IMG/VR virus record: IMGVR_UViG_3300029258_005166 | Location: 1-64,000 of that record | DNA: 64,000 bases | Source: a virus | Reading direction: 5' to 3' (one strand) | In this document: positions 27,818-53,329 of the stretch, piece after piece | How the letters are laid out: every line of letters begins with the position of its first letter | How positions within the stretch are numbered: position 1 is the first letter of the stretch | Notes under the pieces: generated by a model | What the model saw: the letters and a program-made list of their open reading frames with translations, nothing else | Told to the model about the DNA's origin: nothing | The model's database searches: none | Made by a program: the position numbers and the translations under genes

Positions 27818-27894
27818 AACTTACAAGAGTGAATGAAAGAATTGAACGGCAAGAAATTGTCTAATAAACAGTATATATTTAACTCTTGGTGACC

Positions 27895-28437
27895 ATGGCA
27901 ACAGAATATCTCAATAACAAAGTTTTCGAGAACATTATTTCCAAGTTCCAGAAGACCAAAAAGCAAAAAGCTCGTTTCGAGCTAATAATAGAAGACTTGT
28001 CCGATACCATTCAACGAAAACGTCGTCGGAAAACCGTTACCGAGGCAAATCGTGCCAAATTGAAAGCAAACAAACAACTCTATCAGCAAGTAATCTCGGA
28101 TCACACAGTTACGAAAGATGACTTGGCCCTAGCCTTCCTTACTCTTTCCGAAAATCTCGTTCGATTTGCCAAATTCAATCTAATTGAACCCTCGGACGCA
28201 ATCCAAGAAGGAGTTATGATCTGTTTCGACAAAATAGATCGTTTCGATCCCAGAAAAGGGAAGGCTTTTAACTATATGACAACCTGTATTTTAAACCATT
28301 TCAGGCAATTGTATAGGACAGCCAGGAATTATAATGAACTAAAGAAGCGGTATTTGCGTCATTTACAGATAGCAGAGAAAATCATTATTAAGAATGGTAA
28401 GGAAATGACTAATTGGAACCATGGTTATGGATTTTAA
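27895..28437 (+). CDS. gp55: gp55-like sigma factor for late transcription
   Basis: A 180-residue sigma-region-2 protein. Its C-terminal half, with AIQEGVMICFDKIDRFDP, GKAFNYMTTCILNHF and RTARNYNELKKRY, closely matches cyanophage and T4 gp55, which directs host RNA polymerase to late promoters with only a TATAAATA -10 box. It lacks sigma region 4, as expected. I take the ATG at 27895; a GTG and TTG just upstream are alternatives. No terminator follows; a promoter for the next gene lies just after. Confidence 0.9.
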   Translation: MATEYLNNKVFENIISKFQKTKKQKARFELIIEDLSDTIQRKRRRKTVTEANRAKLKANKQLYQQVISDHTVTKDDLALAFLTLSENLVRFAKFNLIEPSDAIQEGVMICFDKIDRFDPRKGKAFNYMTTCILNHFRQLYRTARNYNELKKRYLRHLQIAEKIIIKNGKEMTNWNHGYGF

Positions 28438-42371: not shown

Positions 42372-44444
42372 TTATACTTCTGTTGCAACGGCAACTTCTA
42401 ATTCCTTAACTGAAAGAAATTGTCCTTTCTCGTTGCGTTGTATTTTTTGCTTTTTCTTACTTTCTGATATTTTCTTACGAGTTTCTTCATTCATTGGCTT
42501 TCCCAGACGGCAATTCCTACGTCCGTTGTATTTTTCATTGATCGCTTTAAATTCTTTTGAGTCCAAAATTTGTTTCGGAATAAATGGATTGACCGAGATT
42601 ATTTCAACTCGACATATTTTACAGATGTTGTTTTTCTCGCCAGTCGTGTCAAAATGCAATTTGATTTCTTTAAGATGAGGACGTAACAAAATTGCTTTGT
42701 CTTCACCGCTCGCTTGTAATACGTCTTTGCAAAGAGTTTCAATGGTCGAAGCCATTTTCAATAAATGTTCTTTGGCACGACGATATTCTGGCACTAAAGA
42801 AACCAGATTCGCTTCTAGCACTTCAATTTCTAGTTGTTTATCCTTGATGAATTGTTTAACATCGGGGTCGTCTGCTATATCACTGAATTTCAAAATCAAT
42901 TTTTGTTTTTCAGATTTTAGATCAGCGATTTTAGATTTTACCGACTGACTGGCTTCATCAAATATTTCTTGATATGTAAGCTCGAAATAATCAGCATTGG
43001 CATCAGTTGCCGTATATTTCCAAGCACGTTTTTGGAAATTCTTGGTCTTTTCTTCGTCGGTTTCGCCAGGAAGGTTTGTCAAAATAAATCGGTACATCTT
43101 CTGGGCGACTTCGCCGCAAAACTCATTGGCATTGGATGACTTCACTTTCTCACAAAGAGCGGTATAACTTTGTCCAAGCCATTTAAGCCAATTGTCGATT
43201 ATTTCATGGATAACATCGGCTTTGACAGCACCACATTTATTACAGCGATAATTTTTTGACGGCTTCCATTTTGTGCTATTGGAGACATAAAGAATATCTT
43301 GACAATTATCACAGAACAAAAAACACTTCGCCCAAAAATCACCTAAATTAGCTCGTCGTAATCGTTTATAATCAGTTTGATTGTCTTTGAGGTATTTGTT
43401 TATTCTATCCCATTGCTCCACCGAAATAATGCGAATGGACGTTCGTTCTTCTTCGGTTAGAGGGACGACAACTATCTCGGTATTCAACCGAGCAGTTTTG
43501 GCTTTCGAGACTTGATTATCAATTGGATAACCCTTGTAGATTGAATTTGTTAATATGCACTTGATCGTCTTGGCACCCCACTGCGAACTCATACTTTTGA
43601 TGTTTTTCGCATTCAAAATACAAGCAATTTCGTGCGAGGTTTTATAGTTTGGAGCATCAGCCAGATCAAAGATTTCTTTTATAATTTTGGCACGTTCGAC
43701 ATTGATGATTTCTGTTTTTCGGTCGCCTTTTTCCATTGACGGGGCAGACGTAAGCAACACCCAATTATGACCATCTTGAACCCATTGATCGTGATATGCT
43801 TCTCGCTTGCCATCTGGTAATTCTTTCCATCGCATCAATGCGTAATTGGCACGACTTCTGGTATTTTTAGGTGGATCAGTCCAGTGTCGTCCCTCACATT
43901 TTTTGTAGCCATCGTAAATGACCTTATATTTGAAGGTTCCTTCACGATTGAACACAATCCAGTCGTATCCATAAGCACACATTTTGCCAGGGCTAGATTT
44001 TTTCTCAATGGTTTTGCGACGGGCAATTTGAGTTCTATATCCTTTCTTTTCTATTTCGGCAGAAGAAGCCAGTTGATTTTGCACTGTTCTCATTGTTGAC
44101 GCAAGATCGTTCATATCAACAATTTGTTCATCATTGGCAGTGATGATTTTTATATCCAACTGCTTCAAAGAGGTGATGAAAAACCCAATTTCGGCAGGAT
44201 TTTTGAAGCCAATTCTATCGTGATCTCGATAAATGACATATTCTGGTTTGGTGGTTTTTAATTTAGAAATTAAATTTTGTGCTTCATCGAGCATGTCCCA
44301 GCGTGGTACGCCATTTAATGTTATTTCATCAATCATTTTCCAACCCATTTTGCTAATAAACGGATCAATTATCATGTCTTGATTAGACAGTTCCATCGGG
44401 TCAGAAACATTGGATTTTCTTCTTATTTTAACACAAGTAGTCAT
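42372..44444 (-). CDS. Large serine recombinase with NUMOD-like C-terminus
   Basis: 690 residues. Resolvase-type catalytic domain (about 1-170; VKIRRKSNVS holds the probable nucleophile Ser, and DRIGF lacks the usual second Arg), then a recombinase domain (SHEIACILNAKNI, ILTNSIYKGYP), a Zn-ribbon (CDNC ... CNKC near 385-415), and a long coiled coil. The last ~40 residues (NEETRKKISESKKK) look like a NUMOD3 motif found in homing endonucleases. CGGAG directly before the ATG. Such enzymes integrate or excise mobile DNA. Confidence 0.88.
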   Translation of the reverse strand: MTTCVKIRRKSNVSDPMELSNQDMIIDPFISKMGWKMIDEITLNGVPRWDMLDEAQNLISKLKTTKPEYVIYRDHDRIGFKNPAEIGFFITSLKQLDIKIITANDEQIVDMNDLASTMRTVQNQLASSAEIEKKGYRTQIARRKTIEKKSSPGKMCAYGYDWIVFNREGTFKYKVIYDGYKKCEGRHWTDPPKNTRSRANYALMRWKELPDGKREAYHDQWVQDGHNWVLLTSAPSMEKGDRKTEIINVERAKIIKEIFDLADAPNYKTSHEIACILNAKNIKSMSSQWGAKTIKCILTNSIYKGYPIDNQVSKAKTARLNTEIVVVPLTEEERTSIRIISVEQWDRINKYLKDNQTDYKRLRRANLGDFWAKCFLFCDNCQDILYVSNSTKWKPSKNYRCNKCGAVKADVIHEIIDNWLKWLGQSYTALCEKVKSSNANEFCGEVAQKMYRFILTNLPGETDEEKTKNFQKRAWKYTATDANADYFELTYQEIFDEASQSVKSKIADLKSEKQKLILKFSDIADDPDVKQFIKDKQLEIEVLEANLVSLVPEYRRAKEHLLKMASTIETLCKDVLQASGEDKAILLRPHLKEIKLHFDTTGEKNNICKICRVEIISVNPFIPKQILDSKEFKAINEKYNGRRNCRLGKPMNEETRKKISESKKKQKIQRNEKGQFLSVKELEVAVATEV

Positions 44445-45526: not shown

Positions 45527-46096
45527 CTAATTCAATCTAACGTCAGTTGGAACGTGATTAAGTCCCAATTGTTGCCATTTTTGTCGGCTCAAAGCCATAT
45601 AGCCTTTCTTCCATACGTCAGGTACATACATGCGATCAGGATCGGTGCCAAAGATTATGTCGAACTGGGGAACCTCTTGGGGAAAAACCAACCAACCAAA
45701 ATTGGCAATTTCATTTTCCAATTGTTCTCTGTCCCATTTGGCATAACCTGTTAAAATTCGAAAAGAGTCCTTGGAGATGACAATCTGATTCAATTTGTCG
45801 CTTGTCATGCTCCAATAGAGTCCCGGAAGAACTTCATCTTCGGAAAACTCGGGGCTTTTATGAATCGCATGCATGGGCCCAAATACAGGTCCACCAAAGT
45901 AGATCGAATCTTCCCGTTGACACTTGCAATTGGTATCGAGATCAGACCAGACTTCTTTCAGGGATTGTCCAATTGGCCTATTTAAGATAGCCCCCGTTAC
46001 CAAGTCCTCGTCTTCTCTGAGAATCAGAACTAGGCTACGACGGAACTCGTCGGGCCGCCCAGGAGAGGCAATAAGTAACTGACCAACTCGGCTCAT
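45527..46096 (-). CDS. yqgE: YqgE/AlgH family protein
   Basis: 189 residues matching UPF0301: GQLLIASPGRPDEFRRSLVLIL at the start, TGAILNRPIG, YFGGPVFG and NEIANFGWLVFP. Cellular members have no agreed role (AlgH was linked to redox and alginate regulation). AAGGAAG precedes the ATG. It is rare in phages and lies before the RmlA-like gene. Confidence 0.85.
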   Translation of the reverse strand: MSRVGQLLIASPGRPDEFRRSLVLILREDEDLVTGAILNRPIGQSLKEVWSDLDTNCKCQREDSIYFGGPVFGPMHAIHKSPEFSEDEVLPGLYWSMTSDKLNQIVISKDSFRILTGYAKWDREQLENEIANFGWLVFPQEVPQFDIIFGTDPDRMYVPDVWKKGYMALSRQKWQQLGLNHVPTDVRLN

Positions 46097-47728: not shown

Positions 47729-48565
47729 ATGAAAAAATGGACAATTTTACTACTAGCGTTATTGCTCCTGGTCCTCTGGATCAAAAAGACCCGAAATACC
47801 GGACCTCGGTATATATCCGAGGGAGAGATCGTCCAACCGGGCGAAATCAGCCCGATTCCTCCGGGAGTAGTTATCCCGGTTGTAAAGGAAATCAATGAGC
47901 GAAATTGGCAAATTCAGAGTGTTATATTCAGGGAAATCAAGCTTCGTTTCAAAGAAGGTGTGTTTAGTATTGGACTGCATGGCGATATGTTTTACGAGAA
48001 ATCCAGGAATTTTCAAGCTGAACTTAGATCGGTTTTTGGAAAGGAACTGGAACTGGGTTCCAATGACACTTACTTTTGGTTTTGGTCCCGAAGAATGGAG
48101 CCTCCCGCGATCTTCTATTGCCGACATGATGAGATGCACAAATCTAGACTACGGACTCCTTTTAATCCCGTCTGGATTATTGAATCTCTTGGTTTAGGAG
48201 AGATTTCAACACAGGACGCTCAGGTAGAAATGATGGGCAAATATTGTAAGATTGTCCAAATGAGGAGAAGCACACTGGGAAAAATGGTCAAGAAAACGAC
48301 CTTAATCGATTGCCAGAAAAAGGCCATCATTGGTCATTACATTCACGACAACAATCAACTAATTGTGAGTAGTGAAGTTGAAGAGTTTTCCCATCTAGAT
48401 GGATTTATGATTCCGAAGAAAGTTTGTGTTATTTGGCATGAAGAAAAAGTCGTTCTTCACTGGGATTTTCTGGAACCGGCATACATCAAGACAGGAAGTC
48501 CGCGTCTTAACATCGATTGGAAAATGCCTCGCGGAAAATTGATGATCGACATGGCTACTTATTGA
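47729..48565 (+). CDS. LolA-like extracytoplasmic protein
   Basis: 278 residues with an N-terminal hydrophobic segment (about 5-19) that is a signal or anchor. The body, with KELELGSNDTYFWFWSRR and YCRHDEMHKSRLRTPFNP, resembles LolA/LolB-fold outer-membrane lipoprotein-sorting relatives, which I associate with Planctomycetes; this is a loose family call. AGGAGG lies 6 bases before the ATG. Overlaps the tail of 48555 by 11 bases. Confidence 0.6.
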   Translation: MKKWTILLLALLLLVLWIKKTRNTGPRYISEGEIVQPGEISPIPPGVVIPVVKEINERNWQIQSVIFREIKLRFKEGVFSIGLHGDMFYEKSRNFQAELRSVFGKELELGSNDTYFWFWSRRMEPPAIFYCRHDEMHKSRLRTPFNPVWIIESLGLGEISTQDAQVEMMGKYCKIVQMRRSTLGKMVKKTTLIDCQKKAIIGHYIHDNNQLIVSSEVEEFSHLDGFMIPKKVCVIWHEEKVVLHWDFLEPAYIKTGSPRLNIDWKMPRGKLMIDMATY

Positions 48566-48764
48566 GCTTTCGTCTGGCGATCTGGGCTCTTCGCTTTCGT
48601 TCGATAGTTATCCGACTATCCTGTCTCTCGCTATTGGCCGATTTAAGAGCCTTCAACTGTTGCCGTCTCGATGGCACTCGATTGATTCCCCCTTTCGCAG
48701 GCCGTGGTCCAATTGTGGGTCTACGACCATGTCTGCGACCACTTCCACATCCACATCCTGGCAT
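48555..48764 (-). CDS. Gly/Cys/Arg-rich micro-protein A
   Basis: 69 residues starting MPGCGCGSGRRHGRR, then basic and helical (RRKLNK end). ATG 48764 follows GAGGT at 5 bases. Its start resembles that of micro-protein B upstream, suggesting a duplicated, Cys-rich basic peptide. No known family; both lie after the ECF sigma gene. Confidence 0.55.
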   Translation of the reverse strand: MPGCGCGSGRRHGRRPTIGPRPAKGGINRVPSRRQQLKALKSANSERQDSRITIERKRRAQIARRKLNK

Positions 48765-48771
48765 TTGCACC

Positions 48772-48900
48772 TCACAAGATTTTGGTTTCTTTGTGTTTAA
48801 CTAATTTTCGCTGCGTGTTCCGGTTCTTTTTTAGACTACGACGCTTCACAAGACCTGAACGACCGCCCTTTTTTCCGCCGCCTCTACATCCACAACCCAT
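48772..48900 (-). CDS. Gly/Cys/Arg-rich micro-protein B
   Basis: 42 residues starting MGCGCRGGGKKGGRSG, followed by a basic helix. The ATG overlaps the sigma factor stop (TAATG), so it is translationally coupled to it. Similar N-terminus to micro-protein A. Function unknown; RNA or DNA contact is plausible from charge. Confidence 0.55.
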   Translation of the reverse strand: MGCGCRGGGKKGGRSGLVKRRSLKKNRNTQRKLVKHKETKIL

Positions 48901-49556
48901 TATTTTTCTAAGCCTCCCTTTTTCAGCCGTCGAAGTAGGTCTTTCTTTGCTTGGTGAATCGCTCTTTTGACCGTTCCTATAGGAAGATCTTCTTCTTGAG
49001 CAATCTCACTAATTTTCATTCCATCGAAATATTGCTTCATCAAGAATCTAGTTCGTCTTTCACTATATCCTCCCTCTGCAAGCATTGCCTGCAAAGCTCG
49101 ATACATGAGTTCTTTGTGTTCATGTTCTGAAGCCAAAGTGGTTGGATCATCTTTCGAAGAGATGCTCGGAAGACCAAATCCGACTTTACCCATTTTCTTA
49201 GGGCTCATTTTTAAGACGGTTTCCCCCGGATCAGAAACGGTAGATATTTTTTGTCTACGGTAATAGTTGGCCATCGTATTGCGAATGACCGACCAGATCC
49301 AATTTTGAAAATTCTTGGGAGGGGCCTTTTCCATTGCTTGGATTATTCTTTGAATAACCTCTTGTGTAATATCTTCAGCATCTTGTTGGTTCTTGCTTTT
49401 TCGTAGAATAGCTGAAAAGATTTTTCTCTCCCACCTTGCTAGAAGATTCGCAAGTGCAGACCGGTCCCCTTCTTTTGCGGCAGCTACAAGAACTTGGTCC
49501 TCTGTATCTTCCGAAAATAGCGGGTCATCATTTAACCAGTCTCGAAAATCCATCAT
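48900..49556 (-). CDS. ECF-type sigma factor with capsid-leader-like start
   Basis: 218 residues. Region 2 (LLARWERKIFSAIL, QDAEDITQEV, NWIWSVIRNTMANYYRR) and region 4 (RTRFLMKQYFDGMKISEIAQ, LPIGTVKRAIHQAK) define an extracytoplasmic-function sigma factor that binds host RNA polymerase. The N-terminus MMDFRDWLNDD matches the leader seen on several proteins here. It starts inside the stop of the 710-aa gene (ATGA) and overlaps micro-protein B by TAATG. No anti-sigma is evident. Confidence 0.88.
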   Translation of the reverse strand: MMDFRDWLNDDPLFSEDTEDQVLVAAAKEGDRSALANLLARWERKIFSAILRKSKNQQDAEDITQEVIQRIIQAMEKAPPKNFQNWIWSVIRNTMANYYRRQKISTVSDPGETVLKMSPKKMGKVGFGLPSISSKDDPTTLASEHEHKELMYRALQAMLAEGGYSERRTRFLMKQYFDGMKISEIAQEEDLPIGTVKRAIHQAKKDLLRRLKKGGLEK

Positions 49557-51685
49557 TGTTCCTGTTCTGGGGATTTGGGGGGAGAGAAAGGCTTGCTAAT
49601 TCTTTCTCGTTGCTCCGGTGATGTTAAAGGGGAAAGTCCTCGTATCATTTGTTCTCTTTCGGCCTTTCTTCTTTTAGCTTCTTCTTCCGGTAGTCCGTAC
49701 AGTAGATGTTTCAATGGAATCATTTCTGATACCTTGGCATATCCATGTGTCACAGGAATCTTAATTGTTTTAAGGGCATTCCTTCCTTTATCGAGCCAAT
49801 TGTTGACCATACCTGTTGTCGCTGGAATAAATGGCAACATCGTATCTGTGAGGCTGTCAATCAAATCTTTTAACTCAAATATGGCAATAGCATTTCCCGA
49901 TTTCCAAGGAGCTTTCTGTAATTGACGCAAGTAATCTCGTATATCATGGATAACGTTGTGTACAGCAACCGTTTGCTGTCTCGTTCTCTTGTCAAGTTCT
50001 TTTCTTCGCTCCACGATAGCGTCAAACATTCTGCTGTGTCCTCTTCCCAAGGAACTTCCTTCGCCGCGTCCCAGCTTCGCAATCTTTTTTACCCCAGCCA
50101 AAGCCTTCTCCAAATGTTCCTGGCTCCTTTGTGCCATTTGTGTTGTGTGCTTTTCTTGGCCTGCTGCCGAGGGCCTTTGCATCGGAACGATCTTTTGTCC
50201 TCGCACTTGGGGAACAGGAGGAAGAGCCCACAAGGGGATTCTAATCATGAGTTGATTCAGCCTGTCTTCTCTCCCCTTCCACAATTTATGTTCTTTGCTC
50301 CCCGGCCTATGTTTGTATCTTTGATTGGTTGCGTTATTCCAATCTTTTTTCATTTGTTGAAGCAGTGTGTCTACGGCTGCCATTTGTTCATCAAGCAATC
50401 GGTCAATCTCCGCTTTGTTTTTAAAGACGTTCTCATTAAGGGTTTTTTGAATATCATTCGGCAATTTGGCTATAACATTCGGTGCCGAACGCATAAAATC
50501 CTCTGATCTCTCTTTCCGTGCCTCATGCTCCAGTTTGTTCCATTCCGCCGCACAATGTCGTTGAGCCCCTCCTTCTTTTAGTCCCACCGATCTCATTCCA
50601 GCACTAATGTGTGGTTCGTATTCGCCCCGTTCATTTTTATTGAAACCATAGTAACAAAGCAATATCATTGCTTGTCGATAACCCTCATCCCCGGTCTGCT
50701 TCAACTGCTCTAATGCTCGAAATAGTAGTTCTTCTCTCTCCGATTGCATTAACTCTCTGTCGGGAATTTTGAATGGTGAGCGGCCAAAAGTCTCTGCCCC
50801 ACCACCGGGTCGTTGGCCACCTTTGCCCGTTACGACGGTTGGGGCGGTTTCTCTGCCCATTACTGGATCTCCCACTCGACCCCGTCTAGCACCTCCAATA
50901 CCAAGACCCGGCTCCCATTCTTCTCCTTCCTCGCCAGCACCGATTTCAGTCGGAACCATGAGGTGACCCCTCTTTTTTTCTCTCGCCTGTATTTGGGCAA
51001 TCTGCTCTGGACTCATTCCCCGATATTTTTCGGCCTCTTTTTCAGCTTTCTCTTCGGGAGTCATTTCTACCGACTGAAAAAAAGGTTTTGCCCTTAGTTT
51101 TTCCTGAGTCCGAAGGATGTCGCTTCCACGCTTTGCTAGGAGAGGCATATATGCTGCTACACCTCGCTGAAAAATATCACTGATCGGCTTGTATTGTCCT
51201 TTTGATTTCTCGGTAATCTGTGTGAGTAATTTTTCAAACATCGGACCAATAATTTCAAGAGCCCTTTCAGGGTTGCCTGTTTTTCGTTCGGCGGCTGTCC
51301 TCGCTACTTCAAACAATTCCCCGATTACGTCCCTGGCTCGTTCTATGTCGTTCGCAAGTGCCACCGCATTTGGATATCGTTGTCGAGCCTCCTCGGGCAT
51401 ACCTCGTTCTAGTTGTTCGGGACTCATGGCATCTAGAATACTAACCGCCTTTCCACGTTGTTGGCTAAGTGTTGCCATCTTCTCCTCTACAGCCGCACGT
51501 TCTTGACGTGACAATTGCTTAGATGCCTCCTCTTTTAGCTGGGCATGCCAACGCATAGTATGGGCAGCATCGATATACTTCTGCTCATCTCCTCCTTGTT
51601 CCAGAAAGAGACAAACGGCTTCAACGACAACCCGCTTAATATCTTGAACGTTTTCTTCTAAGCAGAGCCATTCCCTAAACAACAT
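49553..51685 (-). CDS. Large charged protein with capsid-leader-like start
   Basis: 710 residues beginning MLFREWLCLEE. The body is helical and rich in Glu, Lys, Arg and Gln, with an acidic/Gly-rich linker (about 245-290). No enzymatic motif recognised. The ATG at 51685 is preceded by GAGGT and a TATATA box; a longer frame has no ribosome site. Coupled to the ECF sigma gene downstream. Candidate internal head protein. Confidence 0.65.
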   Translation of the reverse strand: MLFREWLCLEENVQDIKRVVVEAVCLFLEQGGDEQKYIDAAHTMRWHAQLKEEASKQLSRQERAAVEEKMATLSQQRGKAVSILDAMSPEQLERGMPEEARQRYPNAVALANDIERARDVIGELFEVARTAAERKTGNPERALEIIGPMFEKLLTQITEKSKGQYKPISDIFQRGVAAYMPLLAKRGSDILRTQEKLRAKPFFQSVEMTPEEKAEKEAEKYRGMSPEQIAQIQAREKKRGHLMVPTEIGAGEEGEEWEPGLGIGGARRGRVGDPVMGRETAPTVVTGKGGQRPGGGAETFGRSPFKIPDRELMQSEREELLFRALEQLKQTGDEGYRQAMILLCYYGFNKNERGEYEPHISAGMRSVGLKEGGAQRHCAAEWNKLEHEARKERSEDFMRSAPNVIAKLPNDIQKTLNENVFKNKAEIDRLLDEQMAAVDTLLQQMKKDWNNATNQRYKHRPGSKEHKLWKGREDRLNQLMIRIPLWALPPVPQVRGQKIVPMQRPSAAGQEKHTTQMAQRSQEHLEKALAGVKKIAKLGRGEGSSLGRGHSRMFDAIVERRKELDKRTRQQTVAVHNVIHDIRDYLRQLQKAPWKSGNAIAIFELKDLIDSLTDTMLPFIPATTGMVNNWLDKGRNALKTIKIPVTHGYAKVSEMIPLKHLLYGLPEEEAKRRKAEREQMIRGLSPLTSPEQRERISKPFSPPKSPEQEQ

Positions 51686-51739
51686 TTGTATTACCTCACT
51701 GGAGTATATAGGATTTTCGTCTCCATTTAGTGAGGTAGT

Positions 51740-51768
51740 CGCCCGCTCCCGCATTGCGGGAGCGGGCG
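51740..51768. terminator. Intercistronic GC-rich hairpin
   Basis: A perfect 13-base-pair stem with a 3-base loop between the epimerase stop and the 710-aa gene. No U run on the minus side; probably processing or partial termination. Confidence 0.6.
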
Positions 51769-51775
51769 AGCTTGT

Positions 51776-52981: not shown

Positions 52982-53026
52982 ACCCTATTTAGACATTAGG
53001 CGACTAGATATGGTTGTATGAAACCC

Positions 53027-53329
53027 ATGAATTTTCGAGAGTTTGTTTATCAAGAAAAACCTCGACAGAATTATGCTGATATCGAGGTTGCGAATCTCTA
53101 TTTTCACAATCAACTTAAAGTCAGGGAGATTTCCGAACTAACCGGCAGATCAATTGGTGAAATTTACAGGGTAATTCGCATACAAGGTGAACCAAATCGA
53201 AAACGGCGAGATCAAGGAAACGTAATCGCCCTGGCCGATTCGGGCCTTGGACTCAGAACAATTTCCGATCTTACGGGCTACACAACTAGGCATATTCGAA
53301 ATATCTTGAAAAATGGTAAGTCCGACTGA
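53027..53329 (+). CDS. HTH protein with capsid-leader-like start
   Basis: About 100 residues beginning MNFREFVYQEKP (alternative ATG at 53018). Two helix-turn-helix-like repeats follow: VREISELTGRSIGEIYRVI and LRTISDLTGYTTRHIRNIL, so it should bind DNA as one or two recognition helices. The leader suggests packaging, so it could act on host or phage DNA at entry. The next gene overlaps by 17 bases. Confidence 0.75.
   Translation: MNFREFVYQEKPRQNYADIEVANLYFHNQLKVREISELTGRSIGEIYRVIRIQGEPNRKRRDQGNVIALADSGLGLRTISDLTGYTTRHIRNILKNGKSD

Follow-up and report, generated by a model that had tools for sequence, protein, structure and literature searches.

Phage T4 packages Alt, a modifying enzyme that alters the polymerase at entry, and phage N4 packages a virion RNA polymerase. 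The virion RNA polymerase of phiKZ is also packaged, and delivers transcription control along with the genome (PMC13282480). Sigma factors of jumbo phages are thought to act on the host polymerase after entry (PMC7824862). ECF sigma factors are already known in phages, and in the open-access literature we found no sigma factor that is packaging-tagged, packaged or injected. In T4, ten residues of the capsid-targeting sequence (CTS) are enough to package foreign proteins. CTS residues 4 and 7 act in targeting and residues 8 and 10 in processing, and Asp at position 10 stops processing but not targeting (PMC9026906). Here we describe a phage gene whose predicted product joins an ECF sigma factor to a leader of this kind.

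The 64-kb stretch that was analysed (the window) is the start of an IMG/VR contig of 135,444 bp, which is itself a fragment. This metagenomic phage is of T4 type and falls in a group of huge phages. The 595-kb genome LR756511 encodes a major capsid protein with 79% identity to its own, and many metagenome contigs, one of them 532 kb long, encode one with ~85% identity. The T4-type capsid protein, gp23, was assigned by homology. Reading of the contig places genes similar to those of the T4 head (gp23, gp22, gp21 and portal) at 95.7-103 kb, including one for a gp21-like protease. Inspection by eye pointed to intein/LAGLIDADG-like insertions in two proteins, the portal and an actin/ParM-like one (contig 101248-102942 and 124934-127048, both on the minus strand). 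This T4-type phage also encodes a large serine recombinase (window 42372-44444, minus strand) and an AlgH/DUF179 protein (window 45527-46096, minus strand).

Comparison with sequence families confirmed that the product of the open reading frame at window positions 48900-49556 (minus strand), 218 aa long, is a canonical ECF sigma factor with sigma-2 and sigma-4 intact. Both regions, which the original prediction had called clear, exceed their Pfam cut-offs: Sigma70_r2 matches with 46.6 bits (cut-off 24; 3e-12) and Sigma70_r4_2 with 33.4 bits (cut-off 25.7; 3.4e-8). No other sigma region gave a Pfam match. The protein thus has the ECF layout of region 2 and region 4, with regions 1.1 and 3 absent, in ~200 aa. 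It also matches phrog_1740, 'RNA polymerase sigma factor' (2.6e-22), and residues 14-207 align with E. coli sigma-E (1or7; 4.1e-12). A single-sequence structure model (pLDDT 58) served for the domain layout only. A search of other viral contigs yielded no close relative of this sigma; matches in Cyanophage AS-1, a 'Salmonella phage' and Microcystis MaAM05 were set aside as apparently short records of bacterial or mixed origin. The original prediction had described ECF sigmas as uncommon in phages, but they are not so rare, being present in crAss-like phages and in a 636-kb huge phage. It had also assigned the phage a separate gp55 for late genes, and such a gene lies at 27886-28437 (plus strand; Sigma70_r2 6.3e-7, phrog_234 5.9e-8). 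The ECF sigma is therefore not the gp55 orthologue, which is a different gene.

The sigma begins with a leader of 13 aa, MMDFRDWLNDDPL (49518-49556, minus strand), which was delimited by profile score, sigma-E alignment and model confidence. Because the sigma-E alignment begins only at residue 14, the leader is an N-terminal extension added to the sigma. Confidence in the single-sequence model is below 50 at residues 1-15. None of the 31 cellular ECF-type loci gathered via shared short motifs has the leader, and in the simple, leaderless cellular ECFs L164 and L171 the common KNQQDAED motif lies ~14 residues closer to the start. To score the leader, we used a profile built from four related phages, with the present contig left out. 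The sigma scored 11.1 bits and the product of the adjoining upstream gene 13.3 bits; with primases also removed from the profile, the scores were 11.4 and 13.4 bits. Just 1 of 6,121 internal Mets equalled the sigma, which bears out the earlier statement that its first residues follow a shared leader pattern.

The leader is found on ~10% of the genes of this phage. At a threshold of at least 9 bits, the start-Met qualified in 16 of the 161 genes of the 135-kb contig, compared to 2 of the 6,121 internal Mets in five genomes. Written as a pattern, M-x(1-3)-[FYW]-x-x-[FYW]-[LIVMF], the leader occurred at 14/161 first ATGs and 3/681 internal Mets in this contig (G000). The same contrast was seen in three of four relatives, including G003 (25/280 and 4/1179) and G010 (11/123 and 2/695), and was weaker in G001 (20/593 and 20/2873). 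The primases of these phages have a native N-terminus that resembles the leader, so that a match is not proof by itself and false positives exist.

We compared the leader with those of the T4 internal proteins. On the profile, T4 ipI, ipII and ipIII took ranks 1-3 among the 25 genes of a T4 stretch, although they scored just 0.1-3.8 bits. Since leaders in this huge-phage group score 9-15 bits compared to 0-4 bits for T4, the two are of similar, not identical type. IPI, IPII and IPIII share with the sigma a short N-terminal leader, aromatics at positions 4 and 7 and an unrelated cargo behind it, and both genomes encode a gp21-type protease. In contrast to T4, the cargo here is a sigma factor. 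The residues of the sigma leader are F4, W7, L8 and D10, which places the aromatics as in a T4-type CTS. This 4/7 register is the commonest, found in 51 of 105 leader proteins; translation from M2 would give register 3/6, the second commonest. L/I-x-E, the cleavage motif of the prohead protease, lies near the leader in 49 of these 105 proteins, an enrichment over shuffles (26.4 +/- 4.1), and in its strict form is absent from about half of them. The first 26 residues of the sigma contain no such cleavage site. Unlike in T4, the combination of D10 and a missing L/I-x-E makes cleavage unexpected, and under T4 rules the sigma leader would be targeted and perhaps left uncut. Given the absent motif, the sigma may be packaged unprocessed or handled otherwise than in T4. 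We limit our claim to a sigma that would work like a T4 internal protein, and do not count it as a member of the processed ones.

The gene directly upstream of the sigma gene (49553-51685, minus strand) encodes a 710-aa protein with the leader MLFREWLCLEE. Its stop and the sigma start share the sequence ATGA, a 4-nt overlap, and so the predicted coupling of the sigma to a second leader protein stands. The mechanical open reading frame of this partner is 733 aa long. We placed its likely start at the ATG at 51685, rather than at the first ATG of the frame at 51754, because a late promoter lies inside the longer frame. This element, CTATATA (51705-51711, minus strand), is located 26 nt before the partner ATG and resembles T4-type, gp55-dependent late promoters. 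CTA[ACT]ATA occurs at 55 sites in the contig, of which 37 precede a start on the same strand by 10-120 nt (binomial p ~5e-29). It appears to be the late promoter consensus of this contig in place of the classical T4 consensus TATAAATA, which was rejected for lack of enrichment (1 site compared to 2.1 expected). The late-promoter element is found on 9/18 leader genes compared to 25/162 others (p=0.0016). CTATATA before the operon, together with the ATGA coupling, suggests that the sigma is probably made late, along with its partner. A 14-bp GC-rich hairpin (51739-51769) separates the operon from the upstream epimerase gene.

The partner is mostly alpha-helical, and no function could be recognised in its sequence. 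Its relatives were not found in viral contigs, and its only family match is a marginal one to Imelysin in the C-terminal part. An anti-sigma domain was not found in this adjoining gene. A sigma-4-like segment picked out by eye (residues ~308-353) was dropped, as its hhalign probability was 3% and it had no Pfam, PDB or PHROG match; the single-sequence structure model of the partner was unusable (pLDDT 41). Downstream, the sigma stop overlaps the start of a gene for a 42-aa small basic Cys-containing protein (MGCGCRGGGKKGG...; 48772-48900, minus strand; TAATG), and a second small basic Cys-containing protein (MPGCGCGSGRRHGRR...; 48555-48770, minus strand) follows. Both probably belong to the same operon. 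The tandem proteins directly behind the sigma (window 48555-48900, minus strand) start with MGCGC and MPGCGC. Basic Cys proteins next in the operon are compatible with a packaged sigma that binds DNA as an internal head protein, its fold having been turned from transcription to the packing or protection of DNA. The weak region 2 of an ECF-like protein in one relative (G007) points the same way, but region 2 of the present sigma, the part that contacts core polymerase, is well over the family cut-off, and we regard such a reuse as very improbable.

To determine how widely the leader accompanies ECF sigmas, we looked at related phages. G010, whose capsid protein shows 83% identity, encodes two units in tandem (leader-ECF-leader-ECF) within a single frame of 529 aa, and the ATG of the second leader is preceded by AGAGGA, which resembles a ribosome site. 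The hhalign probability to ECFs was 98%. Leader-bearing ECF-like proteins are also encoded by G007, by two more records in which the protein is identical and by one in which it is 66% identical. These begin with MSFARYF or MTSFAKYF and extend to VLSE-S (hhalign 94%). G001, G003 and LR756511 encode further sigma-like proteins that have no leader, so the combination of leader and ECF recurs without being universal. The gp55 of this phage is also without a leader; across three genomes, no gp55 N-terminus carries one.

These comparisons bear on whether the sigma is packaged at all. It could instead be a middle or late sigma used within the same infection, with a leader likeness that is accidental or due to shared ancestry with its neighbour. 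The native leader-like N-termini of the primases and the missing L/I-x-E site would fit such a protein, as would the application of sigma factors to the host polymerase after entry that is envisaged for jumbo phages. Against this, internal Mets almost never match as well, the leader comes on top of the part shared with sigma-E and the sigma is coupled to another leader gene. Moreover, ECF-like proteins in two relatives carry the leader, whereas gp55, a factor for the late stage of the same infection, is without it. We consider an unpackaged sigma unlikely and packaging, taken by itself, probable.

As a check on the role of the sigma, the original prediction had suggested a search for a repeated non-sigma70 promoter upstream of early genes. 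Upstream of 112 genes in the 135-kb fragment, dyads, hexamers and GGAAC revealed no convincing ECF-type or other early promoter class above shuffles. GGAAC was present in 8 upstream regions compared to 12.9 +/- 3.2 expected, and sigma70-like elements were in slight excess (TTGAC, 21 compared to 13.7 +/- 3.7). Repeated GCAAAGC and ACAATGGCA words were rejected as promoters, being hairpin loops or scattered words. The early genes may lie outside the 135-kb fragment, or the target of the sigma may be the host. Late-only expression with no early promoter class had been named as an outcome that would speak against the prediction; of its two parts, the late promoter element was found and an early class was not. 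The late promoter does not argue against packaging, because a packaged protein needs late synthesis, like the T4 internal proteins. The missing early class counts solely against the proposal that the sigma redirects early transcription.

The same result fits a packaged and injected sigma that serves as a takeover factor, which would either vie with the primary sigma of the host for the core enzyme or switch on host ECF-type genes. T4 Alt, which acts on the polymerase at entry, offers a parallel. The evidence for packaging applies equally to such a factor, no ECF-type promoter class was found upstream of genes in the contig, and the weak sigma70-like excess would allow host sigma70 to serve the early genes. 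On the other hand, the intact sigma-4.2 helix-turn-helix suggests a specific DNA target, and early genes may sit elsewhere, the contig being a fragment. Takeover falls within the packaging reading, so its likelihood overlaps with that of our best explanation, and we rate it as possible but rather doubtful.

The best explanation, which we hold with slightly better than even confidence on the sequence evidence, is that the sigma is synthesised late, packaged, injected and used to steer the host polymerase. The gene product would be a functional ECF sigma with a T4-type capsid-targeting leader fused at its start. The sigma and its leader-bearing partner would be transcribed late from the gp55-dependent promoter, and the leader would dock both into the prohead core, placing them inside the head. 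Both would then enter the next host along with the DNA. There the sigma would bind the core RNA polymerase of the host ahead of all phage protein synthesis, and would steer it to phage promoters or simply off host genes. The sequence shows the ECF identity, the added leader and its family, the coupling, the late promoter element and the recurrence in relatives; we infer packaging, injection, polymerase binding and target promoters, the last with the least certainty. A packaged sigma would probably serve to redirect the polymerase of the host as the phage enters; that it sends the enzyme to phage early genes is less certain. The original observation is confirmed, and is stronger than first stated; the interpretation given with it is supported in part.

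The leader also offers a means, from sequence alone, of listing the proteins that huge phages probably inject, most of them of unknown function. Such a list includes an Acb1-like anti-CBASS enzyme, a DnaJ-domain protein and conserved helix-turn-helix proteins. The first is a 2H phosphoesterase with the leader MKTWQQFLQE (contig 91965-92504, minus strand; L004:8965-9504), which matches the Acb1 (anti-CBASS) Pfam family at 29.8 bits (cut-off 27) and is a candidate injected anti-defence enzyme. The DnaJ-domain protein has the leader MDFRKWFEA (contig 118135-119328, minus strand; L005:16135-17328). A small helix-turn-helix protein with the leader MNFREFVYQE (window 53018-53329, plus strand) has leader-bearing counterparts in three huge-phage records (G001 375376, G003 120785 and LR756511 489679). 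Leader proteins of this contig and of G010, G007, G001 and G003 also include NUDIX, poly(A) polymerase head, ADP-ribosyltransferase, HAD, GNAT and C39 peptidase domains.

The phage sigma resembles E. coli sigma-E and Mycobacterium SigH in having region 2 and region 4 along its whole length, and differs from them by its 13-residue leader and by the lack of a recognisable adjoining anti-sigma. Phages of the crAss-like and T4-type jumbo groups likewise encode ECF or sigma70-like proteins in their genomes (PMC7824862), but those examined here have no packaging leader. We tentatively propose, at a little less than even confidence, that some huge T4-type phages inject packaged ECF sigmas, as a tandem pair in one relative, and so reprogram host core polymerase from the very start of infection with no need of a virion polymerase. 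Packaged transcription control would have its simplest form in such a sigma, one small protein taking over the host polymerase at entry. The proposed logic, in which transcription control arrives with the genome, is that of T4 Alt, N4 and phiKZ. Whereas those phages deliver a modifying enzyme or whole polymerases, this phage would deliver a sigma that borrows the host core and, if the proposal is true, would do with a sigma what N4 and phiKZ do with packaged polymerases.
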